Source: Corythucha ciliata | Lineage: Eukaryota > Arthropoda > Insecta > Hemiptera > Tingidae | Length of the DNA: 64,000 bases | Direction of reading: 5' to 3' | Assembly (NCBI GenBank): GCA_038030265.1 | Contig: CM075941.1 | Coordinates: 18,104,001-18,168,000, forward strand | Shown: positions 11,101 through 60,151 of the stretch, one piece after another | Numbering within the stretch: the stretch's first letter is position 1 | Layout of the letters: each line of letters begins with the position of its first letter | Position numbers and translations under genes: made by a program | Notes under the pieces: generated by a model | What the model was told of the DNA's origin: nothing | What the model saw: only the letters and a program-made list of their open reading frames with translations | Databases searched by the model: none

Positions 11101-13130
11101 TTTTATAAAAGTGTTCGAAAATTGAGAAAAAGCGCTGATTTATTAACTGTTATAAAAGTGAAAAAACCGCTAAATCGTAACTGACAATTTATTAACACTA
11201 TTACGCGGCTAAAATTGAGAAAAACCTATGAATCGCGCAGTAAATTTGCGGCTGAACTGGAGAAAAAGCGCGATTTGCTAGTTCTTGAAGTTATTTAACT
11301 GCTGATGATATTGAGAAAGTTGCACCGGCGGCTTCTGAAGGGAAATTAGCTGCTAAAATCGAAACAATACGCTGATCTCCAATTTCTAAAATTACTAAAA
11401 TTGTGAAAGGGGGCAAATATGTGCACCTCTTGGGCGGAATTTCGCAGCCACTAAAATATAAGAGAAACAAATGCCGCTGTATGCTGATATTCCGGGCAAA
11501 AATGTCAAAAAAAGCCTCATTCGTGGCATTTGAGAGATTGCGCAGAAAATTAATGAAAAAATGGGTCTTTCGCGCTATTGTGGTGACTTTCGGCGAGAGA
11601 ATGGAGAAAAATTGCTAATTCACATATTTCTGAAAAAACCGCTACAAAAATGAAACAAACAAAAAAGCAAGAGTTTATGGCTAAAAACGGTTACATACGA
11701 GTCTGTAACGCATTAGGACATTTTCATGTACAGCCGTTACCATGGCAACCGTTGTCATGGTAACCGTTGCTATGTGAGCCGTTACCATGGCAACCGTTGC
11801 TATGGTAACCGTTACCATGGCAACCGTTGCTATGGTAACCGTTGCTATGTGAGCCGTTACCATGGCAACCGTTGCTATGGTAACCGTTACCATGGCAACC
11901 GTTGCTATGGTAACCGTTACCATGGCAACCGTTGCTATGTGAGCCGTTACCATGGCAACCGTGGCTATGGTAACCGTTACCATGGCAACCGTTGCTATGT
12001 GAGCCGTTACCATGGCAACCGTTGCTATGGTAACCGTTGCAACGGGACCATTTGGGACAAATTTCGTTAGCAATTTTCGTGAGCAAATTTCGTTAGCAAT
12101 TTTCGTGAGCAAATTTCGTGACGATTTTTTTTTTATGTGCCATATGAAAGACATGAAAATGTCAAAATGAGAAAACGATCATTCCTGGCCAAAAATCAAA
12201 GATAGAAATGAATAAAAACGCTTATTCGTGACAAAAATGGAGAAAATCTTCAATTCGTGGCTTTTGATAAAAAGCACTAATTTCATGCATGTATAACTAA
12301 AATGAAATAAACTAAAAATAACGCTGTAATTTTAGGCTGAAATTGAGAAAAGCGTACCAATTCGCGGCTTCTGAACGCCACTTCGCGGCTAAAACAGGAG
12401 CAATACGCTGACCCCTGTTTCGCTGTATTGGCTCGTATAGGCGCGCTGCTTTTAGGGAGAAATATTGTGTAAAGATAGGGGAAAGTGCTAATATTCGGCT
12501 CATACATTGCAAAAAAAAGCGCTCATTCATGGCTAAAATTGATAAATTGCCAAAAATTGAGAAAAATCGTTATTTCGAGGGTCAATAAGGCTATCGAGAC
12601 TCTATTACGGCTAGAATTCAGGAAAAAACTCTTATGTTGCTGTTTTCCTAAGGCAAGTCTGGGGTTGAAATTGAAAACAAGTATACTAATTTGTGTTGCG
12701 AAAAGTAGAAAAAGTCGCCACCTGAACTGAACGGAGAAAACGCTTATTCGCGGCGGGGGAAAAAATGGAAAAGCCTTAATAATTCACGACTATAATCGCT
12801 GAAAAAGTTGCTTGAAGCTGTAGAAATGAAATAAACAAAAAACGCTAACTTATTGCGGCTGAAATTGGGAAAGCACCAATTCAGGTCAAAAATTGAAAAA
12901 ATGCGCTGATTCGCAGCTATAATTGAGCAAAAACGCTCATTCACGGCGGTTTAAATTGCGGAGGAAAAACGCTAAGTTTGCGGCTAAAACTGAGATAAAG
13001 CACTAATTCACGATTAAAATTAGTACTTAGTACGATTAAATTAAGGAAAGTTTATAAAGCGGCTAAAACTTTATAAAAGCGATGATTCGCGACCAATACT
13101 TCATTAGACAGCAGAGCGCTATATTCACGG
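11100..13130 (+). repeat. Degenerate 30-bp array, gcgctaattcgcggctaaaattgag motif
   Basis: Best units read gcgctaattcrcggctaaaa followed by ttgagaaaaa, about 30 bp. Individual units are diverged by substitutions and short indels but phase is often kept for several units. Interrupted by the X-box minisatellite at 11733-12041. No gene is seen. Confidence 0.75.
11733..12041. repeat. X-box minisatellite (30-bp unit, RFX-type palindromes)
   Basis: About ten 30-bp units alternate GTTACCATGGCAAC with GTTGCTATGGTAAC or GTTGCTATGTGAGC. I count nine exact GTTACCATGGCAAC copies. This 14-mer fits the RFX X-box consensus GTNRCC-(N0-3)-RGYAAC with a 2-bp centre. Because the period is a multiple of three, long repetitive frames are open on both strands (Met/Ala/Thr/Val-rich or His/Gly/Cys-rich); I do not regard these as genes. 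It lies about 1.1 kb upstream of the CDC73 start codon. Confidence 0.93.
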
Positions 13131-23842: not shown

Positions 23843-26800
23843 TTAAATTTTTCGTTTTTCCCTCAAAGGTTCTGTTGGGTTGGAACCGTGGCAGATTACA
23901 ACACAATGCTGCCCAGGAGTAGCGACGTACGTGATGAAGAGTTTCCACATTTCACTGTAATCTTGAATATTCAATTTGGTGAATACTTGTTCCTTGATTG
24001 AAGATAAAGTGTCAGTCTGAAAAATGAAAAATTGTGCCGCTGTTGGAACTCAAGTCAGAGTGGCAATTATCGTGGAAACAAAGAAAAAAAGTGTGTACTC
24101 ACTGCTTTAACTTTCACGAAAAAAAGAATCTCGGAAGAGAACGTTCTCTCAAAATAATCAACGACAGGGGTCAAGACTTCGTCCTCAGAAATACTAACTT
24201 CGTCATTGGGAATTTCTTCCAGCCTGAACAAGGCTCTTTAAGAAGACAATCATCTTAATAATGAATAGTATAATTCAGTAAAACTGATTCACCTGTAAAT
24301 TATAGGGGGGGACGGTAGTGTTTCTAGAAAAATCTCCTCGGTAAGAACACCAGGAGGAACGCTTCCGTCGGCTCTTTCGAGCAATCTGAAATCCCGGAGG
24401 TTCATTTATGTGTATCACAACATCCCACATTGGCCTGACCTTAGCTTTCCTGAGCCGGCAGGGCTCAATTTCACAGACGCTTTGGCTAACTCAAGAAGAT
24501 CGGCAACTGTGCCTCCTTTGTGACAATGCAAGGTCATCTCCTTTTCTTCGGTCGTGTCAGGCTCTCTCCACAAAACCTACAAAGGGGCGTTGCTTAACTA
24601 TACAGATAAACTTAGAACAAAACAGCGGTGTATAACCTTGATCGGTCGCTGAATTTCCCATTCGGACAAGGGGACTGTCAACTTTTGATAGAATATTTTC
24701 TTCGGAATTTTAGATTCAACGTTCGGGAAAATGGTACTGAGAGCCCCGTCGAAACTACAGCTGATCGGTTTACCCCATTCCATTCCACATCTTGGCGAAA
24801 AAAAAATAATGGAAAACAAACTGGCTCATGTATTCACCCTTTTTTCTCGAACACTATGCATAAAAACCTGCACGGTTTGAAAAACTGAAGTTTCAACGGG
24901 TCCACTTTAGCGATTTGAGCTACGGTTTTAACCATTTCGGTGTAATTCATTAGCAATGATAGCTCGACGGTTAAACCAGGATCATTCGATATTGTTTTAT
25001 CAATAAATGTAATTTTAGTACGATTGTACAAAATTCTGAAAGTAAAAATTTGTGTTGTAGAAACAGATGAAATTAATAGCGTTTTCCATTTGCATTAAAT
25101 TCAGCTCAGGGGCCGAGCATTTCCACCCGTCTTCTCTGAATTATATTATATGGTAATAGAGAAGACTTGTAGAAATGCTCGGATCCAGATCTGAATTTTA
25201 TGGAAATGGAAAACACCGTTAGTTTAGTAGTGCAATGAAAGTTACCTAAAATATTCCACACATGTATTAAATTCGTGCTTCTGCTCATTATTCTTCTTTT
25301 GAAATACAAGAATGTCTCCGTCCGAAAGTTGGAGCACAGCCTGCAATAATAATGCCTTGGATTGTATAAAGAAAGTCATGGATGATTCCGGTTTCAGGTT
25401 AGCTTAGGGCGCAGCACACACAACAAGAGGTCAATCAGTTAAGTAGCTACACAAAAATCTGCTTTTACAAACCAAAGCCAAACAAATTTTGGTTGGGCCG
25501 CAAGCATTGCATTACTGACAAGCTTGTGTGTAATGCGCCGGCCAGAGATTAAACCAGCATGCGATTAACATACAGCTGACTTGAAATTTGGGGGAAAAAA
25601 CTCGAAAGTTCAGTTGATCTATAAAGCCGATTTGACACAGCTCAGATATTTCTAGGAATGTCTTGAATTTTTTAACGTCATACTTTTCGGATAGGAAGAT
25701 TGACATTTTTAATCTGCTGAGTCAAGCCTGGCGCGACTTCTTCAAAGACGAGCAGTTCGGTAGCTGTTTCAAACCCAGCAATTTCGTTCAACGTCGGAAT
25801 AAGTTGAGCTGAAAAAATTAATTAATTTGTCAGATTAAATCAACGCCATAAGACGCCGAACTTACAAATACTATGAACATCAGGAACGTAGCGATGGCCA
25901 CAGTAACACATTTTATTCGTTTTCGGGTCAAACAGTTTGAAAAATAGTAACACGTCCTGATCATTGTCGTACGAAGGTTTCAGCGTCAAACACAATGTTG
26001 ACTTGAGTTCGAGGAAGACTGTCCACTCTTCGTTATTGCCGGCAATGTCGTGAATATTTCGTTTCGAACTATTCAGATTCAGAAATGTCGGCCGGTAAGT
26101 TTTGTTTGTCCGCGTAACAAATGGCCACAGCTTTAGTTGTTCGGGAGGGTATTTCTGTATGGTCATAAGTTATAACAAAAAGGATAAAAGAAATAACAGC
26201 GAACGAGTAAGAGAAAGGTGTCTTACGAAAACTGATGATAACTGTTCCATTAATTCTTGTAGAGTGGCAAGCTTACGAACGCGAAGCTCTTGGTACTGAG
26301 CCCGATCTCGGTCGAAAAGATCATTACCCTGGTGACTTAGGAAAATGTCTTCAAGAATGACTCGAACGGTCATAAAGAACTTGCGTTCATCCTTCCTTTC
26401 TTTGATTCTTTCTTTTAACTGTTCAAACAGCGTGTCAAATGCAATGAGTGATCGGAGGAGTAAACTTTGAATATTAGTAGGAGGTTGCTTGGATACATCC
26501 TGATCATTTTCCAAACCTATAGTGATGGAGTGTAGAGAGTGATCAAAACAAAACAAAACGAGACAAACTGGAACAGGGTGAAGAAGGGGGCTGGTCCATT
26601 TTTTTGTCTTCATTTCAGTTCACACAATATAACGCTGCCTAGCAATGATTTTGCATAAATCGTGCAAAATCGTTTAGGTTCAATCAAGGTGCGTATAGAA
26701 TCCAAACGCGAAAAAAATAAATAAAATGCCCGTTCCTGGCCTTTTCTGAAGGATCAATAGACAAAAATCTCTAATTTCGTACATGGTTGGACCTAACATC

Positions 26801-29800
26801 TCGTCAGCCCAAACCTTATTATGCGAGTAACTCTGTTACGGATAATTTCCCCCTCACAGCAGGTTGGTATTATATGGGCAGTTCATCGATTTTAGGGCGC
26901 GAATAGTTAATTAATCTTTTAAGGGTGCGAATTGCTTCGGCTCAGCAGCATGTCAGATTAGACATTTTAAGGCTAAAGTGGACGACAAGTGTGCGAGAGA
27001 GAGGGAATATAGCCGTAGCGATTCTACCTTTCACGGCCGCAAAAATTCGCCGATTTTGTTTTTGTAAATTGATTCATACTCATTGATGCCAAAATTTCAA
27101 GGTAATTGGGTCGCTGATTTTTAAAATGACTCTAGCCCATACAATTTTAAATTCAAAATTTGAAAAAATAAATTTTTGGAGAAAACTGGATTATGCCACG
27201 AAGCAGCGTAAAATCTTGAATACGAAATGTATTTTGTTTTTTATTTTGGTCCAGAAACATCGTCCGAAAGAGAAAAATGCGACATCAAAAAGAATAGCCG
27301 CCCCAAGGCCAGGGTAGTCATTGTGGTGTGTACGGGAGGGGTCACTCGAACGCCTTCTCAGCTTAGCTCCTTCCTTTGCACTCACGCACTCCAGAAATTA
27401 GTTTCAATACATCACCGCATTTATTTATTACTTTGCCTAGGTTATTAATTAATTGGTTGATTGAATTATACCTATACATAATCATGTACAACAGGTGCCT
27501 ACAGGATGTTTCAGAATACAGAAAGTAGACCTGATTTTGGTACCTATTTTTTTTTTTTAATTTTTATTTGAGTATAAAACATTCATTTATTGGAACATTG
27601 CCGACTACTTCCAGGGTTACTCCCCATACTCAAGGCATCCAGGCCGAAACAAATCTGTCTGTCACATATCAATCAAAATTCCTAAAAATCCTGCTGACGG
27701 ACGTACAAGGAAACTTGTTTCTCAGTAGACCTATTTTGCAATCTAAAATACGAATTACATGCACAGTCCGAAACTCAATAGTTTCCAGATTTTTCAGGCG
27801 TTTTCAAGGCATGGGTACCTCGTTTTTCTCAATACATTAGCAACTTTGTCCGTTCCACGCGAAGCTTGTCGACTTCTGACATCGGATTCGAAAATATCAC
27901 AATTTTTTTGTTGTTCGGAATAACAGTTTCTGGTAGGAGTTATTTATTTATTGTGACGATGACAGCGTCTCAATCTGGACAAATCCGAGTTTTTCAATTT
28001 TGTCATGAAAGTCAACCCGACCTTGATAGCCCTAAATCACTTCACAGGACTTCCCTTTTAGAAATACTTCTTATGTTACATATTATGTAACCTCGTTCAA
28101 ATCATTTATTTGGGTTATTGTGTTACAAGCTGGAATTTAAACCATTTTGCTTCAAAAAATAGAGCTTCATTTATTCAAAATCGAACATTTTGACTATAGG
28201 GTCAAATTAATAGGAAAAATAATGCGTCTTTGTAGGCATAATATACTGTTACTATTGAGTTTTAAGCCGTAGCTATACAGACGATTTTTCATTTTTAGGG
28301 TTTAGGGTTCTATTTTCTTTTTCTCCTTCTTCTTTTTCTGAGCTTTCACCGTCCTGCTTTCCACAGACATGCCAAACTTTTTAGAGCGTCCGGGCAGAGT
28401 TCAAAATTGTCCACTTTTTGTCCTACTTTTCGGTCGAGTTGTAACGTAATTGATTTAACATTTCAACTTGTAACGTCCGGCGTGTCCAACTCCCATCTTT
28501 TACGTTCATCAATGAACAAAGTTGCGGGGCCAACTTTTGTTGCAAAACCAATCACGCACGTTTGGCACTTTTGGAAAAATGTTTCGTTATTTTGCCTGCA
28601 AAACCCAATTTCAAAGATTTTTGCTGTTTAAAAACTAAATTTTGCGGATTCTTCTCGTTCCAGCTCGTTCAAAAACCAAATTTTCGAGAGTTTTGCTCTA
28701 ACGTGAACCATTTTTAAGGACTTTCGCTCTTTCAGGGACCAATTCCGTGGTTTTTGCTATTTATAAAATCAGTTTGGCAATTAATTCGAAGAATTAATTG
28801 CCGAAAAACGAACGACAGAAGATCAAATTGTGTAGTATTCGGCTCGAGGGCCCAACGAAAATGGTCTAATCGTTACGTTAGTACGTTACCAATCTCATAA
28901 GACGGCAACAGCGGGCGGCGGGACAAGCAATAAAACCAAAAATGTCTGCTCATGGTGTTATTTAGCACAATGCTTCCTCGAGTAACATATCTTCGTTGAA
29001 CAGGGCCGGATCTATTAGGTAGTGTGGGGAGGGGTGTAGGAGGGGTATTTTCTCCAAGGCATCACTCGCCAGGGGCAGCAATTGATCTCTTATTAAGAAG
29101 ACAAATCTGCCAAAATTAGCATAGATAATTCGAGAACAAAATTTTGGCTAATCGTGCACGTCAAGTCTGCACTTCACACTGCCCCTGGAGTCCCTCATAT
29201 TGGGCCGATCTAATTCAAAATGAAATGGGACCATCTATAGTCTAACCTACGTTCATCATGAATATTTCATCAAATTCGGTTGGCTATTCTAGAAGATATG
29301 AGCGTTGGTCAGAAGTGTACACTACGCCCCCCTGGAGCCCCTCCTATTGGACCGATTTAAACCAAATTGAAATGGGACCATCTGTAGCCTAACCTACGTG
29401 TATCACGAAGTTTTCATCAAAATTATTTGGCTACTTTAGGAGATATGCGCGTTGGTATAAAGTGTAAAGACACACTGACAGACACGGAACCAAAGTTGTT
29501 CAGAAAGCTCTGAAACGCGGCAAGTGGAATTTTTTAAATCGAAGATCAACAATTTTTTCACCTCGAGAAACAATCACATAGCTTCCCATTCCTTCGGTAT
29601 TCGAGGAATTAATTTTTATTCTGGCGAATCTGTGTTGTCTATTTGGCCACGTATGTTTCCCTTAATAACGCTAATGCGTTGCACTCGCTCCCTTTGAATT
29701 AAGTTGATATGTTTTTTCATTGTTGTTAAAAACGAGCTTAAAAAAAGTGGGCTATAATCCCGCATTCAATCTTGCACGATTGAAAACAGTGCGGGATTGC

Positions 29801-32800
29801 GAACCCTAGTTACAACTGATGATTGTAATCATCAGGACTCCCAAAGAGCCGAGGCAGCAAGATCTGCCCAAGATTTCGGCCATTTATACCTTCACTCATG
29901 GGGCCATTATAGGCGATTTTTGACCTATTGTGTCACACCGGAAAACTTCGTCAACCCTGACGGATCGTAAATCCATTTATTTTCATTTTTGTTCATTGTT
30001 TCATTTCATTTCATTTATTTCTCAGCTCAACAGTAAAAAACACCAAACAGAGCAGTCAAAACAGAGACAATAATAATAAAATATAAACAAAGAACCACAG
30101 GGTGTATAAATAAGGTATTATCACAGTCAGATATTAGGATTATCACAGTAACTGATAATTTTTCCCTTAAAAGAATTGAAAGGATCGGAGAAGATATCAC
30201 AGCTCAGTGGTACAGAATTGGCCAATGAAGCAAAACGAGACAGCGTATAATGCCTCCCGTAATTGGTACGGAACGGTGCAACATTAAATGTAGCACCCGT
30301 CAGTCTCTGACATCGCTGTGGAACTCTCAGAGCTAGATCAGAAAGGACTTCAGGACAGAAATGTGGGAGTTGAGGACCTTCCAGACAAATAACAGGCTTG
30401 AAACTCTTCGTCTATCCGCTAACGATTGTAATCCAGTGGCACGAAGTCTCTCACCATACGATAAAACTCCCGAAACCCCAAATTTGAAAGATAGATACCT
30501 GGTAGCCCTACGCTGGACCGACTCAAGGAGAGCGACCTCAGATTTCAAAAAAGGATCCCAGACGATGCAGGCATATTCAAGATTGCTCCGAACCAATGAC
30601 TGATACAGCAATTTCACGGCGAACGGATTCCCGAAATTCGCCGTAAAGCGCTTGTTTCGTCCATTCAAGTCATCTATCTACACCAAAATCAACTTATTTC
30701 TACGAATTATTTTAGGTCGCTCAACGTATTTTTGTTTCAAGATATAATATACCAATCTCAACAAATTATGAAGCTTTACCTATTTGATTCAACGAAGCTC
30801 CTCATAGAGAGACATTTTAGCTACAGAACTGACGTTTCCAGTTTCCACCCCTACTGGGAAAACGAGAGGGGGTTCCACCCCCCCAGTAAGTAACCGACTT
30901 TCTGATGCATCTAATAGACTTCGAGTTTTTGCTCAATCGGTGGGGCTCCAAATTGAAAACAAATACTACCTTCCGTGTCCATTTCAATAACGGATAAGAA
31001 CAATAATTTTAGCGCTGGTGTGCGGTGAATATAGCATAATGTATTGTATAGTAAATATGTACCTACAAATAACAGGTAATTCGAGGAAAGCGTGTAATTA
31101 CATCAACTTTCAACTGGATATTTCTAAATCACTATCCCCATCCTCACCTGTTTCGAATTTCAGAAAATGTAAGTACTAGCCACGGAAGCTGAACGTGAAA
31201 AATAAAAATGGAATTTAGTGAGCCTAATATTCATAATTGTACTAACAAATAATGAATGAATTGGAAACTAATTCCTGGAGCGTGTGAGTGCAAATAAGGA
31301 AGGAGATAAGCTGAGAAGGCGTTCGAGTGACCCCTCCCGTACACACCACCATGACTACCCTGGCCTTAGGGCGGCTATTCTTTTTGATGTCGCATTTTTC
31401 TCTTTCGGACGATGTTTCTGGACCAAAATAAAAAACAAAATACATTTCGTATTCAAAATTTTACGCTGCTTCGTGGTATAATCCAGTTTTCTCCATAAAT
31501 TTATTTTTTCAAATTTTGAATTTAAAATTTCCGGGCAAGATTCATTTTAAAAATCAGCGACCCAATTTCCTTAAAATGTTCGGCATCAATGAGTAGGAAT
31601 CATTTTACAAAAACAAAATCGGTCAATTTTTGCGGCCGTGAGAAGTAGAATCGTTTGGCGAGCGCAGTGGCGCGATCTCTTGACACAGAAAATTTGACAC
31701 AGAAACTCACTAGAGACCTATGGACTTTAGCCTTAATGGCGTGAATCGTGAGTTACGACATCTGCAAGGCGCAAAGGACCAGTTTAGCCATTTTCAGGGC
31801 CCAAATCGTTTGCATTTTAGTCATTTTTAGGTCGTGATTTCCAGTCAAGGTTTTCTGTAGCGCAAGAGAAGTCTGGTAGTTTATAACTGTAGTCATTCGA
31901 AGGCGCGCGAATCGTCATTCTGTAGCCCCTGTTGTAGGGCGCGAATGATCCGCTTGGCCATTGTTGGGGAGTGAATAGCCAGATGTGCTATTTTAGGGCA
32001 CGAACCAGATATGCTATTTCAGGGCACGAATCGTCAGCTCAGACATTTTCAAGGCGTGAAAGCTCAGTTTGGCCCATTTTGACAATGGTTGATTTCGTCA
32101 TTTTCATGACAGAAATCATCTGTTCAGGCCTTTGAATCTTCAATTTAACCATTTATGGGACGTATTTAGGGTCAAGTTTGCTGATTTTAGGGCGTAAGTA
32201 GTCAATTTGGCAATTTTCAAGGCGCAAACTGTCAGAAAGCTCATTTCTAGGGCGTCAATATAGTCACTTATGGTGGATTTCACCACCTCGGCTTAAGGTT
32301 CGGCTTAACATTAAGTAGGACTTAGGAGAAAAAATGCATTGAATTTTATGTAAACGAGGTTCGGCTCAACTAAGCCGAACCTTAAGCCGAGGTAGTGAAA
32401 TCCGTCATTAGTCATTAGTTTTCAGTTGCAGGGTACGAACTAAGTTCAGTCATTTTCAAGGCGCGAAATGTCAGTTTAGCTATTTTGGGGCCAATTGACC
32501 GGCGCCCTTCTGGGGTTTGCCATTTATTATAAGGCTGCGAATAGTACGTCGAGTGAAGATACGTGAATATGCCAAGTTATATTCTTGGCGCGCGAATGGT
32601 TTATTATGTGATTTTCCGGGCAGGAATCATCTATTTAGAAATTTTCAGAGCGCTAATGGTCAGCTTATCAATTTCAAGGCGCGTAGAGTCAATTTGGCTA
32701 AAACTTTACATTAGGGTTCTACCCCCACACTATCCAACTGGAAATTGACAGTCCCCCCCCCCCATATTTATGTTGCAAGTTTTAGCAATGTATAAGAGAA

Positions 32801-35800
32801 GCGGTGGGAAAATCAGATACGAGAATGGGTTGAGGGGAGTGGCTCCCAATCTTGAATGATTATCGCTGTGTTTAGAGCGTTCAGTGAGGAGACTAGTTTC
32901 CTGTGGTACCTGACCATCAACAGGATTGTTTGGATGTGTGTGTATTTTGCTGTTTGTTGGTTGTTTTTGAGAACTGGGACTAATTGTTGTTATGCCTTCT
33001 TCAAGTTGTTTTCGACCAACGGATGCCTTGAAAATGGGGTGCAATTACCCCGAAACTAGTCGGCATATTTAAATAAAATAAAAGAATGTTATACTCAAAT
33101 AATTAATCAATTACCTAAATCATTTAACATTCACGATATAATCAAAATTTGAACAACAAAAAGATCTAACCTCAAAAGCCTAAACACATAAAGCTCGAAT
33201 CACAGAGGCAGCAACCCCAAAATGCACTAACCACAAAAAGCTCTTACTGCAACAAACACGACTCAACCACAAAATGATTCAACCTCAAAAGCTTGGACCC
33301 CAAAAAGCTCGAACCACAAAAAATATAACCAAAGAAAAATTGAACCACAGAAACTTGAACCCCAAAACTACCTAACGCCGAAAGCTGGAACCTCAAAATA
33401 CTCTAGGCACAAAATAAATTAACCACAAAAAGCTCGATCACACTAACCCTAAAATGTGCAAATAACCAAAAGCTCTAACCACAAAAAAATTCAACAACAC
33501 AAAGCTCTAACCACAAAATAATGCACTAACCACAAAAGTTCTAACCGCACACCTGACCACAAAAAGTGTAACCACAGAAAAATTGAACCCCAAAAAGATC
33601 AAACGCCGAAAGCTGGAATTGAACAGCTCGAATAATACAAATATTAGGCCAGAAGTGTGGGAACATCCAACAAATTGAGTAGTATAATTGAAGATATCAT
33701 GGCCGTTATTCAGAAATCTTCCTTCTCAAGTACGAGTCAATAATCTTCCTTCTCAAAGTACGATTTATCTAGAAATGTGATCTGTCTTAAACCTCGGCCG
33801 GATTCCATAAATTCAAGTCAGATCTCTGAGTACGGTTCATAATCTTTAAAGATATAATCACTTCACCTCTTGAGATATGTCATCCACGGTCACATCTTGA
33901 AGTACGTTTGGCATGTCAGAGTCTCTTATATAAACCAATACGCAAGCTACCGGTGAAGCGCCACCTCCGAAGTTATCATCGATAGCTTCTGTTTCCTTAC
34001 AGGCCGAAACAAGGTCATCGTCGAACTCGAACCACTAGATGAACAGAAGAGAACACACATATATGTATAGTAAAAGAAAGATAAATAAAAAATTTAATTG
34101 TTGAAAACAAACGTACTGGACCGTGCCCTTTAGGATTGACGAAGACGGCGAAGCCATCTCCTACGTCGTCTCCAGAATGAATTACAACGGCGTGAAGCGT
34201 ATACACAGGAAGGGTGTTCTTGGAATATTCCAAGAATTTGGAGAGATCTAGTTTTTCCGGAAAATCAAATCTGTTTTCGGATGGAGACAAAACGCATAAG
34301 AAAAAATTAATCAGCCAAACCTCCTTTTTCACCTGTTGTTCAATTTCTCAAAGAAGCCACTACGAGCGTCGTATTTGAATCTCATCAAATTCAGATAGAG
34401 TACCGGAGGAAATTGGGTGAAAATGACGCTAATTTCAGCTTTCTGCAGGCCATACTCCCCAGCGTCGAACTTATTGATTCCGTCAAGTACTTGCGGCTTG
34501 ACAAAGTCTTCGAATGACTCATAAACTTCGAAAAAAAAAATTAAATTTCTATTCCTAGAACAGGGTTATACGCTTACTGTTTTTCTTTCCTTCTACATTC
34601 AGATTGATATCGTAGAAATCTTCAGTCCTTTCAGTCTGATAATCAACATTTGTACAACGGATCAACGACTGCAAGTTTAAACGTTGATCACTTAAATGGA
34701 CTCAAACATTAATGTGAGGGTTAAATTCACCTTCATCTCTCCTTGGAATAGGTTAAGTATTCCTTCCTCGCTTTTTCCTTCCATTTCTCGGTAAAGAAGA
34801 TCTAGAATCTTTAAACAATTGTACAATGAACTTAATTCGCGGGGTCTCCCTGCAAGCAATGAGGATACCCTACCCTAGGGAAATAGTCAAGAACGCCCTG
34901 CTTCTGTGAGCCTATAGATTGCCACAAGCTTTTCACTTCAACAGGCCTGTTGCTGATTTGAAGATCGTGAAAAACTTCTTGCAGAGCGAGAACGACGTTT
35001 TTACTTGAGTCAAGCCGTACTGGAATTTTATACAGGTTTTTACGAAACACGTTCGTATGATACAGCGTTTGAAGAATCGAATTCAAGTAGGACGTCTCTT
35101 TGCCATTATTCAAGCCTACGTAACCGGTATTATCTTTAGAATACCAGCCCAAGCCGGTGGGAACACTCGCTGACACGGAGGCCTGTTCGGACAAGTAGTT
35201 ATCGTATCACCACGGAGAAGAAAACATGAAAGTGAAAACTAAAGGCATTAGAACCTCTAAAATGATGGTATCATTCTTAATGTACCCGGCGTTAGGATCT
35301 ATCAAAACATTCCACGAAATGTACTCTTCATATCCCCAGCAACTCGATTCTGCATCATAGGATTTAACTGATAATGATAACTCTAAAAATAAGAAGCCCA
35401 GAAACGTTAGACTGCATTGTTTGGCTTTAGATATTGTGGTGCGATAGTTTTCCAATACTTTTTACCAATGGAGCGACCCCTTTCTTCTGAGGTATCAATT
35501 TCAACTCACTAGAGACATCGCAAGACCAGAGTTTCCTTTTTGATTTCCCGTTACACTAAAATCAATTTCAACACGATTTCAAATCTCGTATGTTTAGTAG
35601 TAATCTTACAGTAAATATAACTAAATATATACTCTAAGGTAGTAACACATAACAAGCGTCAAACCTCAAGGAAAACGCCCAAGTGAGAGACTTCATCAGA
35701 GCCTTCGGTTAGAGCTCGCGGGATGTCACAACATAAAATCCATGGTAGGTGGCGCACATAACATGCAGCCGAACGGTATGTTTCATTTTTCACAAGCTTG

Positions 35801-36024
35801 GTGACATCATTTAGTATGAATCTAAAAGTTGCTCTAGATCTGGACCGGTCTGCAATGCGTTTGGAAAAGTAGTTATGTATTTTTTTTCATTTTTTTATTG
35901 CCTAATACTGTATGTATATCAAATAGTGGAGGGCCTCAAGACTGGTGTTTACTAGAGGGGGGGGGGATCGTGCTGGATGTGGGCGGAGCAGTCTGGACTC
36001 TGGGAATCCGGAAGGAGTATAATA

Positions 36025-36069
<45 letters not shown>

Positions 36070-36967
36070 GGAATAATAATAATAATTAGTGGGCGCCGGG
36101 CTTCGAACCAGTCAGGCGCCAAAGCCTCCTTAGGGCTCATTCCCCGTACCCTGATCCAACTGTGCACTTCACACCCGTACTACGCGGGCGTTTCGGCCGG
36201 TGCGCGATTTGTTGAACGCACACCGCCGGGAACGCCCACACGGAGCTGAGTGCGCCGTGTCACAGCTCGCCGCTACCTTGTGTAGCGAAATGGGCAATAG
36301 CTTCGAACCCAAGCCCGCTAGGTTGCGAAGCGAGTATTATATTCATTACATCATCGAGGCGCGCTACCAGGAGTAGAAGGTGTGAGGTATGATTTGTGTA
36401 TGAAGGTGGTGCGTTACTGCTAGAGAGTAAAGTCATGAGAAAAAACAAGGCGCAACACCAGTCAGAGAGCTCTCGCTTTAAAGTTCCGAGTCTCGCGACC
36501 CTGTTCAAACGATCGTAAGGTTTGATATTATTAGTAGAAGCGCTCAAACTACAAGGGTTAGTTGTAGGTAATACATGCAAAAATCGTAGCCTGTAGGAGC
36601 CTACGTTTTCAGTATTCCCTCGCTGGTTCCGCCATCGACAGACCAGTTTCTGATGTTCTTTTGTTGTTCATTTTTTTCGGGAAAATTGCATTTCATTGAT
36701 CCACTCAAACTTCACATAACTTGGAATGATATCAACAAATTATAAATGAAATTTAGGCCGTGATACAAATTGTTAATATCAAATGAGACATCTTACAAGA
36801 GCCTCCATTCCCCCCACAACATTCGTAGGCTCCTACGGCTTCGTTTCTAGCATGCATGCGAGCCACAGTGGTAGCAGGCAACACCCTTCAGAGGCTCGTT
36901 TCAAGGTTACAACTAGTTACTCACATTCGTCTGAGTCGATCTCGGTGACTTCCGAGTTGGTCTTCAT
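23843..36967 (-). CDS. USP7/HAUSP-like protein, 20 exons, catalytic Cys and His lost
   Basis: USP7-family protein, 997 aa (human USP7 1102). Exons in transcript order: 36925-36967, 35665-35849, 35459-35555, 35255-35382, 34874-35182, 34731-34808, 34578-34668, 34333-34525, 34117-34270, 33867-34034, 26227-26418, 25866-26154, 25684-25808, 25246-25340, 24868-25035, 24637-24790, 24440-24576, 24293-24385, 24103-24223, 23843-24016. All phases fit and no stop interrupts. MATH/TRAF domain at about residues 20-150 (CYVRHLPWILCC; CWGYEEYISW), USP catalytic fold at about 165-480 (DNTGYVGLNNGKETSYLNS; PPVLYLNLMRFKYD), then the ubiquitin-like repeats (FLSHQGND, FFKLFDPKTNK, DGDILVFQKK, DKTISNDPG). The Cys-box residue is Ser182 (codon 35090-35092), the catalytic His position is Gly414 (34153-34155), and Asp431 is kept. 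It is probably a pseudo-deubiquitinase paralogue. The exon 5/6 and exon 1 boundaries are the least certain. Confidence 0.9.
25079..25215. mobile_element. Palindromic MITE in USP7-like intron 14, family copy 1
   Basis: gcgttttccatttgcattaa ... ttatggaaatggaaaacacc, with gagcatttccacccgtcttc and its complement inside. It fills the intron between exons 14 and 15. A relative lies at 37174-37312, and 44740-44800 may hold a degraded third. Confidence 0.85.
27018..27410 (+). repeat. Left arm of a 400-bp inverted repeat pair
   Basis: Includes acggccgcaaaaattcgccg, gaagcagcgtaaaatcttga and gtgtgtacgggaggggtcac. The reverse complement occurs at 31261-31655 with a few percent divergence. Confidence 0.88.
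29190..29460 (+). repeat. Two diverged copies of a 125-bp sequence
   Basis: Both units run cccctggagtccctcatatt / cccctggagcccctcctatt ... aaatgggaccatctatagtc / aaatgggaccatctgtagcc ... agatatgagcgttgg / agatatgcgcgttgg. Identity by eye is about 80 percent. No conserved frame was established. Confidence 0.75.
30120..30668 (-). pseudogene. Truncated LINE reverse transcriptase, C-terminal part
   Basis: Translation of the minus strand gives a typical post-YADD LINE tail: LLYQSLVRSNLEYACIVWDP, LLESVQRRATRYLSF and a Tyr-Gly-Glu-Arg-Leu region. After a frame break near 30335 it continues (RLTGATFNVAPFRTNYGRHY). The 5' part is missing, as in most 5'-truncated LINE copies. It lies in the large tenth intron of the USP7-like gene, in the same orientation as that gene. 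The clade is Jockey/CR1-like by feel only. Confidence 0.75.
31261..31655 (-). repeat. Right arm of the 400-bp inverted repeat pair
   Basis: Reverse complement of 27018-27410. The two arms enclose about 3.85 kb that includes the LINE fragment. Confidence 0.88.
31720..32710 (+). repeat. Degenerate 30-bp array, ggcgcgaatcgtcagtttgg motif
   Basis: Units combine ggcgcgaatcgtcagtttgg with ccattttcaa. The same family is more extensive at 42060-43640, and a trace occurs at 26890-27000. Interrupted by the MITE at 32275-32403. Confidence 0.75.
32275..32403. mobile_element. 129-bp MITE with 33-bp perfect inverted ends
   Basis: ggatttcaccacctcggctt at 32275 (continuing to 32307) is mirrored at 32371-32403 with one or two mismatches. 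Nothing is coded inside. Confidence 0.85.
33130..33640 (+). repeat. Degenerate 18-20-bp array, aaccacaaaaagctcg motif
   Basis: Many units of aaccacaaaa followed by agctcgaacc-type sequence, ending about 230 bases before exon 10 of the USP7-like gene. 32710-33130 holds a C run and no gene. Confidence 0.75.
36017..36087. repeat. (TAA)n microsatellite
   Basis: About 70 bases of nearly uninterrupted ataataata. It directly adjoins the tRNA-related sequence at 36088-36310 and may be that element's tail. Confidence 0.95.
36088..36310 (-). repeat. Possible tRNA-derived SINE
   Basis: The minus strand has two matches to a Pol III B box, GGTTCGAAGCC (near 36105) and GGTTCGAAGCT (near 36300), and a simple (ATT)n tail on its 3' side. 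The sequence is GC-rich and unlike its surroundings. The A box is not convincing. Confidence 0.45.
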
Positions 36968-47897: not shown

Positions 47898-50377
47898 TGT
47901 CGCAGTCATTTTGTCAAATCCGTCATTTTACTAAATGCCTAGGCAAACTGTCAAATATTCGTTTTTGTTGGAAGAAAACACGCATTTGACAGATTGCCTA
48001 GGCGTTTAGTAAAATGATTAGTAAGTATATAAGACTAGGCATTTAGTAAAATGACTAGGCGTTTAACTAAATGACGGGCAGGGGTCCGGCAAATTGTAAA
48101 ACGAGTGAGGTTGTGAATATCTAGTGTTTAATAGGACTTTAATTAAATTTTCATGTTTTAGATTTGTAGCCGTAGCTCAAAGCAATGGTGTTTTTTTTTT
48201 TACAAGGACATCGACGAACCGTTGTTTCTCTGGACTTGGAACCGGTCACGATTAACGGCGTCGTATCAACATCAACAAAGTTCAAGCCGATAAAGCCAAT
48301 TCTTTATATGTAATGTTCTGATATTTCGTGTCCTAATCAGATTTCCGGCTGCCTCTGAACACTTCACTCCCTTCAACATGAACCACGAACAGCTCTTTTA
48401 TCGCGAAATAGACGCGTATTTTGTAGATAAACCGCGCCAAAAACCGTGGACAGTACGCGAAATGAACAGTAAAATTACCGAGTTGCAAAATATTAAAACC
48501 TCAAAATCGTCCAAGACCCAACAACAGTACTTCTTGCTCCGCACGTACGATGTAATCGAGGTAAGTTGAGCCACCTTTGTAGTTGAAATACATTAATTTA
48601 ATTTTGCAGTGCGTTTTCCTGTCCGTCTGTTTTTTCGTCTGTTTCAACTTTGTTTGTTGTTTGTTTTCAGGTCGCTGGTAAACTTTGCATGATCCGAAAG
48701 CCGAAAAGTGAGTCAGATATTGTTTATCAAGTACCCTACGAACAATTGTTTGCAAAATTGGACGAATGCCATAAAGCGACAGGACACGGTGGGAGAGACA
48801 AGTTGATCCACGCGTTACAGCGAAAATATGATGTTCCCCGCCCTGCTGTAACTGCTTACCTTAAGCATTGTTCAGTGTGTATCACCAAAAAGCCAATCCC
48901 TCAAAAAGGGGTCGTGGTGAAGCCCATAATTTCCCACAGATTTAATGCGCGTGGTCAGATTGATCTCATTGATCTTCAGTCTACACCTGATGGGGAATAT
49001 AAATGGATAATGCACTACCAGGATCATGCGACTAAGTTTTCTCAGCTTCGTCCTTTGGTGTCAAAGAGAGCGGCTGGAGCAGCATTAGAATTATTAAAAA
49101 TATTTTTGGATAAAGGAGCTCCTCAAATCTTACAATCCGATAATGGAAGAGAGTTTGTGGCTGAGGTAGTCCGCGAATTGATAGAAATGTGGCCCACTTG
49201 TAATGTAATAAATGGTCGGCCTAGGCATCCACAATCTCAGGGTTCGGTGGAGAGGGCTAATCAAGATGTTGAGCAAATGTTACGTGCTTGGATGACTGAC
49301 AACAATTCTACAAGGTGGTCGATGGGGCTGAACTTTGTTCAGTGGCACAAGAACACGTCTTTCCATCGGACAATTGGTCGAACTCCGTATCGGGCGGTGT
49401 ATGGTTGTGATCCAAAAGTTGGCATATCAGGTGAGATCCCAACCGAACTGCTTGACAAATTTATTGAAGAAGAAAATGTCATACTCTACTCAAGTGAAAA
49501 ATCGTCGAATGAAGGTGCGTCGTCTGATAGAGGATGTGAAGATCACGATAATACAACGAGTACAACATCAGAAGAACCTCGAGAGGAAGATCTCCGTGCA
49601 ATACAGGATGACTGTCGCGAAAAACAAGAAATCGCAGCCAAGCGAATGCTCCAGAGGTCATCGAAGCTTCACGATGCACTGAAGGTAGGAGATACAGTCA
49701 TCGTACACGTTCCAAAAGTAGATCGAGGACCACTCGACAGTAGGAGCATCGAAGGCATCATACTCCAGGCAAAAGAAAGTACTTGGAGGGTTGGAACGAA
49801 AGCTGGCGTGTTGACGCCGTGCTGCTCACGGGACCAACTAGCGAAAACGGATAGCCACCAAACCGAAGATGATGTTCCTTTGGACAAGAGTGTCTCGATT
49901 CGAGAGGCAGTTGCATTTTTTTCTCAGTTCGGCGGTCAAGGTATGCCGAAATGCAACTGCAAGGCCTCAGCGAAAAAATGTTCGTCCAGCAGGTGTTCCT
50001 GTTTGAAGAAAAAAAATCAAGTGCTCATCTCGCTGCCACGGAAGCTCTCCGTGTGAAAATAAGTAATAGGACCCTGACTGACTTCTTGACGATCTACGTG
50101 AGTAGAGAAAATTTTGTATTGATAATAATATTGTATTATTTGTTATATTATTGCTAGTTTGTATTAAACACTTATTCACGACCTCACTAGTTTTTCAATT
50201 TGCCGGACCCCTGCCCGTCATTTTGTTAAACGCCTAGTCATTTTAGTAAATGCCTAGTCATTTTACCAAATGCCTAGCCAATCTGTCAAATGTGTGTTTT
50301 CTTCCAACAAAAACGAATATTTGACAGTTTGCCTAGGCATTTAGTAAAATGACGGATTTGACAAAATGACTGCGACA
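47898..50377 (+). mobile_element. Complete Ginger-type DNA transposon
   Basis: A 2480-bp element bounded by long terminal inverted repeats, left 47898-48134 and right 50162-50377. The outermost 8 bases are TGTCGCAG at the left and the exact complement CTGCGACA at the right; TGTNR-type termini are the Ginger signature. A 4-bp duplication GATA flanks both ends (47894-47897 and 50378-50381), as expected for Ginger. The TIRs contain internal sub-repeats of a motif like CATTTTACTAAATGCCTAG. It carries one intact spliced integrase gene, so it may be autonomous. Confidence 0.93.
48378..50056 (+). CDS. Ginger-type DDE integrase/transposase, 2 exons (KRBA2-like)
   Basis: Transposase of the surrounding Ginger element. 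Exon 1 is 48378-48560 and exon 2 is 48671-50056, with a 110-nt phase-0 intron (donor gtaagt, acceptor ttttcag); predicted 522 aa. An H2C2 zinc-binding integrase N-terminal domain is visible (CHKATGHGGRDKL ... LKHCSVC), followed by the retroviral-type rve core with the acidic triad in IDLIDLQ, LQSDNGREFV and HPQSQGSVERANQD. The Gln-Gly-Ser-Val-Glu context of the third residue is typical of this group. The C-terminus holds a cysteine-rich knuckle (CNCKASAKKCSSSRCSC) like the CXC/tesmin modules of related host-annotated proteins. No stop or frameshift interrupts the frame. The start ATG gives MNHEQLFYREIDAYF; an upstream non-coding exon is possible. Confidence 0.92.
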
Positions 50378-54610: not shown

Positions 54611-55084
54611 ATTTTTTCTCGGAACTCAAAACAAGTAAAGAATAGTACTTAGTAGGTATTTCATTTAAAGATTAATTTATTTATTTTCAGCCTCCCCACT
54701 CCCTCGAATTCACAGTTGAATTCACATGACAGGTGTTCACGATGATGGGCGTCTATGAAGCGTGGTGTCTACGTAGGGTGGTGTCTACGTACTACGAAGG
54801 GGGGTGTCTACGAAGAGAGGTGTTCGTTCACGATGATGGGCGTCTACGACGGACGGTGTCGAACAGTGGTGTCTACGTTCTCTAAAGGTGTTGACATGTA
54901 TACATATAGCAACTCGAGCCTTGGACGAGTGAACATCTCTTGCCTGCTCGAACGAGTAACACCCTAATCAAGGAAGCGTCTCTCTTCCGATAAGTTTTTA
55001 TTTTATTTCTCTTTGTTGTTTCTCTTTCATTTCTATAGACAGGAACTTAACTTAACTCTAAGTATTAATACTTCACAAATCGAG

Positions 55085-56455
55085 ATGAGTGGGGTAGACG
55101 GGGGGAAACCCCCCGATACCGATGTTAATATGGAAAGTGTGGAAGCGTTACATACGGGAAATACTCCTATTGAAACGGGCCAAAGAGTGGAAAAAAGAGT
55201 AGAAATAAACAAAACTGACCAAGTTAAGAACAAAGAGCAAACTCGTCTCTCTTTCTATTACAATCAGACGGATAACGGTCCGTTTATTCTTTATCTGGAA
55301 AGTAAGAATGAAGATAAAATGGGAGTATCACGTATACATCCAATGTCGATCGGAAAATTAATTTTCGAAAAACATCCAAACTTGTCAGAAAAAATTGTTA
55401 CTATAAAAAAAAGCGGGCGAAATAGAATTTCAATCGAACTCAACAATTACGCATCGGCTAACTCACTTATGGATTCTTCGGTCATAAAAGAAAATGGGTT
55501 TAAAATGTACGTTCCTCATCACCTCGCTTGTCGTCGTGGCGTAATACGAGGTGTAGATAAAACGTTAAGTGATGATGAAATTAAAGAAGTTGTTCGTGGT
55601 CCTTTGGGTGAAAAGCTCGATATCCTTTTTGTCAAACGTTTTTTCCGTCGCGTTAATTCTGATGCTGGCTCTTCCTCAGCGCCATCATATTCAGTTTCAT
55701 TTACCATAAGAGGACAAGTCCTCCCCTCTCATGTATTCATTCACCACGTGATCTGTGCAGTCCATCCTTATGTTCAAAAAGTCGTTCAATGCACCAAATG
55801 CCTTCGTTATGGTCATTTTAGTGATCAGTGTAAAGGATCTACTCGTTGCGCGAGATGCGGTGATTCACACGATACTAAAGAATGTGATAAAGACAGGAGT
55901 AAATGTATCCATTGCGGCGGCCCTCATTCGGCTACAGATAGGAATTCTTGCTCTCAGTTCGGAATAGAACAACGAATTAAAAAAGTGATGAGTGAATCAA
56001 ATATTCCATACTATGAAGCCAAAAATTTCGTTACCGGAAACAGTTTTGCTGCTTTGTCCAAAGCTCCTCCATTATATAGCACAAAAGAATTTCCTCCTCT
56101 TATCCGGAGTAATGTAAACAATATGCCACAAAGACTTGCCTCTTCCAGCTCTTTTCCTAGATCTACTAAACGTCTACGCTCTCCTTCTCCCGTTAAATTC
56201 AAACACACAGAACACATTAATAACTATACTCATAAGAATATTTCCGGTGGCTTAGTTCGTTCTAACCCTCATAGCTTTTCACCCTCAACGTCTTCCTCAT
56301 CTCTTCTAAATGTTGCTAATCAAGAGTTTATTACTATAATAGAGCAGTTGCTAAAATCCCTAGGTGTTGACACATCAAAATTCACAACCGAAGATATTAA
56401 AATTATGCTTCGTGAAACACTAGAAAATCAAAATAAAGATAATCCGAATCCATAA
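55085..56455 (+). CDS. LINE ORF1 nucleic-acid-binding (gag-like) protein
   Basis: A 456-residue ORF1 protein of the I-type LINE; it binds the element RNA. The chosen start is the ATG giving MSGVDGGKPPD at 55085; the open frame extends upstream to 55013 without a better start. Three consecutive CCHC-type knuckles are visible: CTKCLRYGHFSDQC, CARCGDSHDTKEC and CIHCGGPHSATDRNSC, preceded by a region (about residues 100-220) in the position of the PRE_C2HC/RRM-like domain. The C-terminal part is Ser/Pro-rich and low in complexity. The frame is intact, unlike ORF2 just downstream. Confidence 0.9.
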   Translation: MSGVDGGKPPDTDVNMESVEALHTGNTPIETGQRVEKRVEINKTDQVKNKEQTRLSFYYNQTDNGPFILYLESKNEDKMGVSRIHPMSIGKLIFEKHPNLSEKIVTIKKSGRNRISIELNNYASANSLMDSSVIKENGFKMYVPHHLACRRGVIRGVDKTLSDDEIKEVVRGPLGEKLDILFVKRFFRRVNSDAGSSSAPSYSVSFTIRGQVLPSHVFIHHVICAVHPYVQKVVQCTKCLRYGHFSDQCKGSTRCARCGDSHDTKECDKDRSKCIHCGGPHSATDRNSCSQFGIEQRIKKVMSESNIPYYEAKNFVTGNSFAALSKAPPLYSTKEFPPLIRSNVNNMPQRLASSSSFPRSTKRLRSPSPVKFKHTEHINNYTHKNISGGLVRSNPHSFSPSTSSSSLLNVANQEFITIIEQLLKSLGVDTSKFTTEDIKIMLRETLENQNKDNPNP

Positions 56456-56479
56456 GTATATATACTATATTTTCTATAA

Positions 56480-59400
56480 ATGGTTCTTCGTCTGCATATT
56501 TTTCAGTGGAACGCTCGATCCCTTGCATCTAAACTGTGTGAGGCCGAGAGTTTTCTGAACCAAGAAAGTTTTGATATAGCAGCAATATCGGAAACATGGT
56601 TTAAACCAAATCATACGTATAAAATCAATGGATATCAATTAGTTCGTAATGACCGGTCTGATGGCAAAGCCGGAGTTGCCATTATAATCAAACAAAACTT
56701 GAATTTTAGAGTTATTGATAATCTGTATCACATTGATGGTTTGATGACCGTGGGAGTGTCATTAAATCTTCTGTGTGGTGGCATTCTTAATGTAATTTCC
56801 CTATATAACAATCCAGTCAACAGTATTAGTCAACACCATTGGGAAGCCTTCTTTAACTCGGTTCCACATCCTTCTATAATTCTTGGGGATTTCAACTGTC
56901 ACAATACAGCATTTGGTTCGACATTTTCCCAGAAAAAAGGCGTTGATCTTCTTAACGCAGCAAGCTCTTCCAACCATATCTTTTTAAACACAGGAGCTCC
57001 CACTTGCATAAATTCTCCAAATCCAAGTAATCTATCCGCAATTGATTTAACTTTCTGTTCTTCCGGAATTGCTCCCTATTTCACGTGGGAGGTTATTCAA
57101 GACCCAATGGGATCTGATCACCTCCCGATTCGTGTAAGCTCGACGTTATATACACCTAGTTCCATAGTATTTCCTACTTTTAGAAAGTGGCGATCTGTCA
57201 GATAAGAATAGTGCTACATATGAGGCACTGGTCAAAAATATCAATGAAGCTTGTGAAGTATCGATGCCGCTTCGCTCTAAAAGACCAACAATAAAAAAGT
57301 ACCCAGTAGAATGGTGGAATCAAGAATGTTTGCACGTCACGAAAGAGAGAGCGAGAGCTTATAATGATTACAAACAAGTTCCCAATTTAACGACTTATTT
57401 AACTTACAAGAATCGAAGTGCTCGTGCTAAACTAGTATATAAAAGAGCTAAACGTACAGCCTGGCGAGAGTATTGCGATAGCTTAAATAAAAGTACCCCC
57501 ATTAAAGAAATATGGTCCAAAATCAGAAAACTAAAAAATCCAGCTCTAGTACAGAACTCTATCACGCCTGGTGACTGGTGTGAAGAGCTTTTACAAAAAC
57601 TCACTCCCAATATGGTATCGCCACAGATAAGTTTTGATAGCCCTAGAACCCCAAAAATGTCAAATATGTTAATTAGAAATGTCACCATTACTGAATTGGA
57701 TTGCGTGATTTCCCATACTATTAATACGTCACCAGGCATGGATAACATTGATTACCCTATAATTAAAAATTTACCTGTCTCGTCTAAACTTACTATGATA
57801 CATACTTTCAATGAAGCCATAGAAACAGGTGAAATCCCTCCTGACTGGAAAAACTATTGTGTCACACCCATATACTTAAACCAGGCAAAACACCAAATCT
57901 TGTGGAGTCGTATAGACCTATTTCCTTGTCATCTTGCGTCTTGAAAACATTCGAAAGAGTGCTCAAGCACAGGCTTGAATACTGGCTCGAACATAATAAA
58001 ATTTTCCCGTACAGTCAGTTCGGTTTTCGTAAGGGCAGATCCTGTCTCGACAGCATCACTCATTTAGTCACCGACGTTTATCACGCGTTTTCAGAAAAAC
58101 AAACTGTCTTGGCCTTAATGTTAGATGTTTCTGGAGCCTTTGATAATGTTAATCTAACAACTCTGGCAAATCAAATGCTCGATATAGGTATCTGTCCGCA
58201 ATTTGTCAAATTAGTGTTGTCGTTAACGAACAACCGGATCATTCAATTACTCGTAAATGACAAAATGCTAGGTCCTCGCATAGCTCAACTTGGTTTGCCA
58301 CAAGGAGGTATTCTAAGCCCACTATTATACGCCATTTATGTGTACGCGATAGAGAAATTCTTACCTCCAGGTGTGCGTATTCTACAATACGCTGACGACG
58401 TGTGCCTCTACGTGGTAGCCTCGACACCCACAATAGCATTGCCAATTCTCGAAGAAGGACTTAAAGCCCTTCGGTGCTTTTTGATTAACTTGGGCCTTGA
58501 TACTTCACCTTCTAAATCGACTGTAATCCCTTTCTCACGCTCTAGATCATTCCCTCTCCCAACAAGCATTACTATGGATGGCCTTCTGTTTCCTGTTGAC
58601 TCTGAAGTTGAATTTTTAGGAATTTATCTAGATCGTAAGCTAAATTGGTCAAATCACATTAACAATATCGTAACAAAGGCAGAGAAATACATAAATGTGA
58701 TGCGTATGGTTTGCAATCACAGGTGGGGTGCTGATCCTGCCACAATGTTGACTTTCTATCGTGCAACCGTTCGTTCTATTTTTGATTATGGAGCGATATT
58801 CTATGACAATGCAGCTTATACCCATTTGCGTAAACTAGATGTGGTTCAATTTCGGTGTATTCGACTCTGCCTTGGGCTACTGAAGTCAACCCCTGTAGAC
58901 GTACTGTTGAGTGAAGCTGGAGAGTTTCCACTTGGAATTAGACGATCGATTTTGGCAGATAAGATGGTGCTGAAAATTAAAGGCCTTTACCCATCATTGT
59001 TTGCTAAAATATCAGAGTTGAATCTAATTGATTTAACCACCGCTTATTGGAGAAAAAAGAAATCCCCTTTGTTGACCACCAGTTTCCGGCGAACGAATAA
59101 AATCAGCCATTCGATTCACTCGGATTGTTCTCTTCCAATGTTTAATATACCAGGGCCAATTTTTTCGTGGTTCCCACAGAATGGGTTGGATATCGAAGTA
59201 AATTATTTCAGTGGCTCTCTTTTGCCATGTACCCCCACCTTCATCGTGCCCGAATCACAAATTACGTTATTATATCCGGACAATTATCAGATTTTCACAG
59301 ATGGTTCTGCATCGAATTTGGGAGTATCCTGTGCAATTTACGACCCAAGAACTCAATATCGTAAACAATTTTTACTAGATCCCAACACCTCTGTTTTCAT

Positions 59401-60151
59401 GGCTGAACTGGTGGCCATATTTGAAGCTATTAAATATTACGTTGAGGCAATAAATCACAATAAATTATTAATCTTGTGTGACAGCAAAAGCGTAGTTAGT
59501 ACATTTGGAAACATTAAAATGTCGTCGAAAACTCACAAGACTATGATAGAAATAATTAAATTATTGTTCGATATAAAGGAGGAAAATAAATCGGTATCTC
59601 TAATGTGGATTCCGGCCCACAGGGGTGTAACGGGCAATGAAAATGCGGACATATTAGCCAAAACCGCCCATACCGATTCTTCGGGTGTAAAATTGAACTA
59701 CACATTCCCTTACTTTGATTTCTTCAAAAAAATTACTCCCATCCATCTTGAAGATTGGAATCAGACTTATGTGTCCTCAAATAAGGGAGCATTTTATAAA
59801 CAAATATTCCCTCGTGTTTTAAATAAAACTTGGTTCTCTGAAAGTTCTCTATCCAAGGACGGAGTAAAAAGCATATGTAGGCTGAGAACTAATCATGGTC
59901 TTTGTCAGCATTATTTATTTAAATTGAATTTAACGACAGCTTCTGAATGTCCGACATGTCAGGAACCGGGGACGCTGGAGCACGCAGTGATGGTCTGCAG
60001 ACAGTACGAAGGATCTCGAAATATGTTTTTCAGCAGACTTCCAAGTCTCCTCTGCTGTCCATTTAATTATTTAACTATTCTAGAATCAAGTTGCCCATCA
60101 GTCTACAAACTCCTGTATGATTTTTTAAAAGACAGTCACCTTGTAGTTTAA
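56480..60151 (+). pseudogene. LINE ORF2: endonuclease, reverse transcriptase, RNase H; two frameshifts
   Basis: The APE-type endonuclease is in frame 56480-57205 (QWNARSL, ISETWFKP, ILGDFNCHNTAFGS, SDHLPIRV). A frameshift near 57190 moves reading to the frame of 57264-57944 (linker and start of the reverse transcriptase). A second near 57880 moves it to the frame of 57857-60151. That frame holds FGFRKGRSCLDS, the catalytic LDVSGAFDNV, GLPQGGILSPLLY and the YADD box; then RNase H with IFTDGSASNLGVSC, MAELVAIFEA, ILCDSKSVV and WIPAHRGVTGNENAD; and a C-terminal CPTCQEPGTLEHAVMVC knuckle. All catalytic motifs remain, so the copy is young and only two small indels from open. It could also reflect assembly error. 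Confidence 0.9.

Follow-up and report, generated by a model that had tools for sequence, protein, structure and literature searches.

Pseudo-deubiquitinases (pseudo-DUBs), in which the fold of a deubiquitinase (DUB) persists without the catalytic residues, are already established as a kind. In the USP family they comprise USP39, USP52/PAN2 and, formerly, USP53 and USP54, which have the USP fold without the usual catalytic triad and for which scaffold or allosteric roles have been proposed; several of them were later reported to be active (PMC10919355 and PMC12037411). None of them is a USP7 paralog. In the OTU family, the OTUD4-type insect copies (Drosophila CG3251 and Otu) are kept duplicates in which the catalytic Cys became Ser, with further changes that suggest lost ubiquitin handling (PMC4654579). 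USP7 itself has a reported non-catalytic function in other animals, its ubiquitin-like (UBL) domains 4-5 support catalysis and the remaining UBL domains mediate interactions (PMC10919355). The gene described here, called W, is USP7-like and lies in a window of 64,000 nucleotides (nt) of the genome of Corythucha ciliata (C5:18104001-18168000), the genome searched being 400.9 Mb in 57 contigs.

W resembles the OTUD4-type copies as an insect duplicate with Ser in place of the catalytic Cys and with further changes around it, but those belong to another family and were probed by RNA interference and biochemistry, whereas W is known from sequence alone. W is rather likely to be a pseudo-DUB kept as a non-catalytic binding protein. 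Since some USPs formerly listed as inactive were later found to be active (PMC10919355), inactivity must be measured. A limited literature search returned no report of an inactive USP7 paralog, and a claim of novelty is accordingly weak.

Structure and active site of the USP7-like gene

W is encoded on the minus strand from 36967 to 23843 of the window (C5:18127843-18140967). Its 20 exons give 997 amino acids (aa) and one terminal stop (table 1). The first-pass annotation had described an intact gene of this size, in which Ser182 and Gly414 stand where USP7 has its catalytic Cys and His and only Asp431 is left of the triad; both its gene structure and its triad are confirmed. The joined frame is open through 997 codons and the stop, the borders of all 19 introns are GT-AG, and the codons encode Ser and Gly, leaving the triad incomplete. 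The introns measure 52-343 nt, except for intron 1 (1075 nt) and intron 10 (7448 nt). A frameshift at the border of exons 5 and 6 was considered and rejected, as the intron there (34874|34808) has a counterpart in the normal USP7 gene of the same genome; W read unspliced through this border runs into a stop codon. A first model of 998 aa differed at three splice sites, and the normal gene decided for the 997-aa model and its numbering. The Pfam scan, the residue counts in homologs, the correlation of rate and conservation, the simulation of stops and the test for clustering at the active site refer to the 998-aa model, and the main counts were redone on the 997-aa model.

The Pfam domains MATH, UCH, USP7_ICP0_bdg and USP7_C2 were all found in W over their cut-offs and in the order of USP7. 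The UCH profile is covered fully (positions 1-254 of 254, 138.6 bits), and W has thus a DUB fold from which the catalytic Cys and His are absent. In comparison with the Protein Data Bank, USP7 chains score best. The protein search scored 7990 candidates and gave at least 1119 matches, of which the best 120 form the homolog set. Within this set the closest to W are hemipteran USP7 proteins (46-47% identity); among the matches listed, full-length proteins do not exceed 47% and partial catalytic pieces reach 53%. The phylogeny places W inside the USP7 family, where it groups with heteropteran proteins (Lygus, Cimex, and two others). Five further matches were scanned for motifs and none is W-like: four (P0121, P0122, P0124, and P0125) have the usual GGHY His box, and the fifth (P0123) has a normal TCY Cys box with the His-box pattern unmatched.

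Compared with USP7/HAUSP of the normal copy, Lygus, Cimex, and human, W has the same four Pfam domains, and its intron positions and phases are those of the normal copy. On the contrary, its Cys and His are replaced, the region of the QHDVQEF motif is rewritten, the linker is shorter, the C-terminal tail is gone and its branch is about tenfold that of the normal copy. The best 120 of the at least 1119 homologs have the Cys in 120/120 cases and the His and the Asp in 119/120 each, the exceptions being gaps. The Cys box NQGATC has become NGKETS and the His box NHGGHY has become DVGDGF, while the QHDVQEF/switching-loop region includes a 5-residue gap. Near-invariant sites (at least 99% conserved in the 120 homologs) are altered in 100 of 257 cases in W and in two cases in the normal copy. 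The activating tail of USP7 (…YLEKAIKIYN) is absent from exon 20. A search with 117 homolog tails located no convincing tail exon downstream of W, the sole hint beside exon 20 being a weak, out-of-frame stretch at 23909-23796 (E 0.79).

The normal USP7 copy, a broken relative and selection

A search of the same genome for a second, catalytically complete USP7 had been set beforehand as a test, and it retrieved such a gene on contig C1 (40463754-40478136, from the MATH exon to the stop), with Cys, His, and Asp, the QHDVQEF motif and the full tail. With this normal copy found, the possibility that W is the only USP7 of the species is rejected. Matches to PF12436 in the genome lie at three loci, that is, the normal copy (three), W (two) and a third locus named W2 (one), and matches to PF14533 lie at the same three. 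At the DNA level, exon 12 is matched at W and W2, and the USP exons at W and the normal copy. A further USP gene on C6 (locus L014/L027; L027:7567-8973, plus strand) was set aside as a USP7 candidate, being diverged, with 36-51% identity over parts of the USP domain only; presumably it is USP47.

Exons 2-19 of W match 18 exons of the normal copy one to one, with equal intron positions and phases. Exon lengths are equal in 8/18 pairs and differ by multiples of three in the other 10/18, which is partly by construction, as the phases are equal and three splice sites of W were revised to fit the normal copy. Because the introns are common to both genes, W is a duplicate formed at the DNA level and an origin as a retrocopy is rejected. 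The two genes are sisters (support 0.988), with branches of 1.10 for W and 0.106 for the normal copy. Their identity is 53% over the aligned part (504/957). The nonsynonymous and synonymous distances by NG86 are dN 0.35 and dS 2.3, the latter saturated, and 69% of the 4-fold sites are different.

W2 is located on the minus strand of C1 (L035, about 33003620-33004999) and aligns with W in the C-terminal half alone. The exon 12 of W2 shows 86% identity to exon 12 of W but is frame-broken and fused to exon 16, exons 13-15 are missing, and no N-terminal exons were found within the 50 kb examined. The derived C-terminus is common to W and W2, unlike the normal copy.

The W lineage was under purifying selection after the change of its C-terminus, as shown for the UBL part; for the whole protein this holds only against a saturated dS. 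In a neutral simulation to the divergence of W, 26.4 stops arose on average and none of the 300 runs gave fewer than 11, whereas W has no stop. Between W and W2, the ratio of dN to dS (omega) is 0.141/0.433 = 0.33 (95% interval 0.24-0.48) over 286 codons, with 0/300 bootstraps reaching 1 or more, and the last exon, which carries the altered C-terminus, has an omega of 0.13 (0.04-0.26). Differences at codon positions 1, 2, and 3 amount to 50, 26, and 72. Whole-codon changes polarized with the normal copy are few: 8 synonymous and 5 nonsynonymous in W, 10 and 11, respectively, in W2. As W2 is broken, the omega of W itself should be below 0.33. Selection on the W lineage after the duplication is supported by the absence of stops and the W-W2 omega. 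The marks of a neutral pseudogene, that is, stops, frameshifts and an omega near 1, are not found in W, by contrast with the broken W2.

Retained domains and the possible role of W

Conserved sites were taken to be those on which four heteropterans agree and which are conserved to 97% or more elsewhere. On the 997-aa model, 6/47 of these sites are changed in UBL1-3 versus 105/256 in MATH, USP, and UBL4-5 together (Fisher p = 1.3e-4); on the 998-aa model the counts are 5/46 versus 101/252. The branch of W relative to all other branches of a fixed tree is 0.67 for USP, 0.23 for MATH, 0.07 for UBL1-2, 0.08 for UBL3, and 0.09 for UBL4-5, where per-domain branch lengths above 2 are saturated and the values serve solely to compare the domains with each other. 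Judged from these sites, the best-kept part of W is the UBL1-3 array.

The Cys-to-Ser change had been described as of a kind that tends to preserve ubiquitin binding, with a reservation for the loss of the His and nearby residues; that binding is preserved is the less supported part of the earlier reading. Ubiquitin binding by the USP domain of W is doubtful, because the active-site region is widely rewritten and this domain changes fastest. The END-WGF stretch of the MATH domain is altered and contains one inserted residue, whereas W keeps the Trp and Arg of the VRxLPW stretch. Both stretches presumably take part in substrate binding, and the altered pocket weakens the earlier suggestion that W is a decoy for USP7 clients through its MATH domain.

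A pseudo-DUB of this kind would have begun when USP7 was duplicated long ago, at the DNA level, in a true-bug lineage, and the second gene retained the introns, the reading frame and the MATH-USP-UBL layout. Later this copy would have lost its catalytic Cys and His together with the QHDVQEF motif and the C-terminal tail; the losses are observed in the sequence, and they would abolish both catalysis and the self-activation that is usual for USP7. Purifying selection would have retained W afterwards. Its UBL array, mainly UBL1-3, would hold partners also met by the normal USP7, and W might act as a scaffold or competitor which tunes USP7 or its partners.

Several observations weigh against W as a retained binding protein. 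The comparison of W with W2 spans the UBL part alone, as W2 has no USP domain; YN00 gives a higher omega for this pair (0.159/0.318 = 0.50), and for the UBL1-2 piece the interval around 0.32 extends from 0.16 to 0.90. UBL4-5 have 12/27 conserved sites changed, although their overall rate matches the low rate of UBL1-3. W has Leu-Gln at the UBL2 sites that correspond to human positions 758-759, where USP7 has two acidic residues; we take these acidic residues to have a partner-binding role, and W may not bind the classical UBL2 partners. Changes at conserved sites of the USP domain affect 32/67 in the active-site boxes and 41/122 outside them (p = 0.06, not significant), so that a concentration around the active site is rejected and the domain is relaxed as a whole. 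Lastly, no ortholog of W was found among the matches listed (the best 120 of at least 1119, plus 5 and 12 from further protein searches).

That missing ortholog would also fit a gene which is dying or recently dead, that is, one under long selection after the duplication which lost its active site in a late relaxed phase and has acquired no stop yet. W2, the sister copy, has been truncated, has a broken frame and lacks exons 13-15; on the 998-aa model W differs at 98/255 of the sites conserved to 99% or more, and its rate of change is only weakly lower at conserved than at variable sites (0.38 vs. 0.66, rho -0.15). We regard a dying W as rather unlikely, however: all exons and introns are intact with no stop in 997 codons, the share of W in the W-W2 omega should be lower than the value for the pair, the codon positions differ in the proportions given above, and the derived C-terminal exon has been kept. 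It is very unlikely that W is still a protease which uses Ser182 or another residue as nucleophile or acts on a different modifier. Asp431 and the Asn ahead of the change in the Cys box are kept, and USP52, once called inactive, was later reported to be active (PMC5876348; PMC10919355). The His is lost too, though, the QHDVQEF and switching-loop region is rewritten with its gap, the tail is missing, and in the insect OTUD4 case the Ser-containing copy showed no activity (PMC4654579). As the sequence of W rests on a single assembly, errors in the changed codons and wrong joining of a single USP7 gene in the model were also weighed, and we hold them to be extremely improbable: the normal USP7 is a separate locus of 53% identity, the changes span the whole protein, and the third locus agrees with W.

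USP7 is a central DUB in which enzymatic and non-catalytic functions are difficult to tell apart. A natural inactive copy of full length, maintained by selection next to an active one, would reveal which parts of USP7 are useful without catalysis; in W, that would be chiefly the UBL1-3 array, and less so the MATH pocket or the USP domain. Such a copy would likewise extend to the USP family the insect pattern of DUB duplicates which lose the catalytic Cys, as in OTUD4 (PMC4654579). An unlikely, more far-reaching form of the proposal is that W is dedicated to regulating USP7 in a dominant manner, as an inactive twin with the UBL docking array kept, the self-activating tail lost and the MATH and USP surfaces refitted for new partners, which would sequester or redirect the partners of USP7 or shield them from a pathogen factor. 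W would then be the first pseudo-DUB built from USP7 itself.

Exon coordinates and other elements

Table 1. Exons of W, and the intron between exons 5 and 6, in positions of the window
Feature	Position	Strand	Content and remarks
Exon 1	36925..36967	-	Proposed start codon; placed from frame and splice signals alone, least certain exon
Exon 2	35665..35849	-	MATH domain
Exon 3	35459..35555	-	MATH domain; 97 nt, equal to normal USP7
Exon 4	35255..35382	-	MATH domain end
Exon 5	34874..35182	-	Cys box; codon 35092-35090 TCC, Ser182 replacing catalytic Cys
Intron 5/6	34809..34873	-	65 nt; normal USP7 has an intron at the matching position
Exon 6	34731..34808	-	78 nt vs. 81 nt in normal USP7
Exon 7	34578..34668	-	USP domain
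Exon 8	34333..34525	-	USP domain
Exon 9	34117..34270	-	His box; codon 34155-34153 GGC, Gly414 replacing catalytic His
Exon 10	33867..34034	-	Asp box, Asp431 kept; normal USP7 exon 27 nt longer
Exon 11	26227..26418	-	Linker and UBL1 start; normal USP7 exon 30 nt longer
Exon 12	25866..26154	-	UBL1-2 (ICP0-binding domain)
Exon 13	25684..25808	-	UBL2
Exon 14	25246..25340	-	UBL2
Exon 15	24868..25035	-	UBL3
Exon 16	24637..24790	-	UBL3/UBL4
Exon 17	24440..24576	-	UBL4-5
Exon 18	24293..24385	-	UBL4-5
Exon 19	24103..24223	-	UBL4-5; acceptor backed by the normal gene and W2
Exon 20	23843..24016	-	Derived C-terminus in place of the USP7 tail; common to W2

Judged by eye, intron 10 of W is mostly repeat-like, and a fragment in it at 30127-30677 (minus strand) resembles the end of a reverse transcriptase open reading frame (ORF). 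The repeat directly downstream of W2 recurs in the window at 60732-61183. Elsewhere in the window, frames resembling a retrotransposon without long terminal repeats were recognized by eye on the plus strand (54968-60151), overlapping in different frames: a zinc-knuckle ORF (54968-56455), an endonuclease-like frame (56480-57205) and a reverse transcriptase/RNase H-like frame (57168-60151). A 484-aa open frame on the plus strand (48602-50056) looks, by eye, like a retroviral-type integrase, and a 30-base unit repeated about 10 times forms a minisatellite at 11734-12038.

In the genome, UCH matches number 79, of which six are inside open frames of 1922-2624 aa. Helitron-type elements, with Helitron_like_N, PIF1 helicase and endonuclease domains, end in a USP-type UCH protease domain and are found on C1, C3, C5, and C6; two of them were read (L049:4842-9974 and L050:4814-9937, both on the minus strand).

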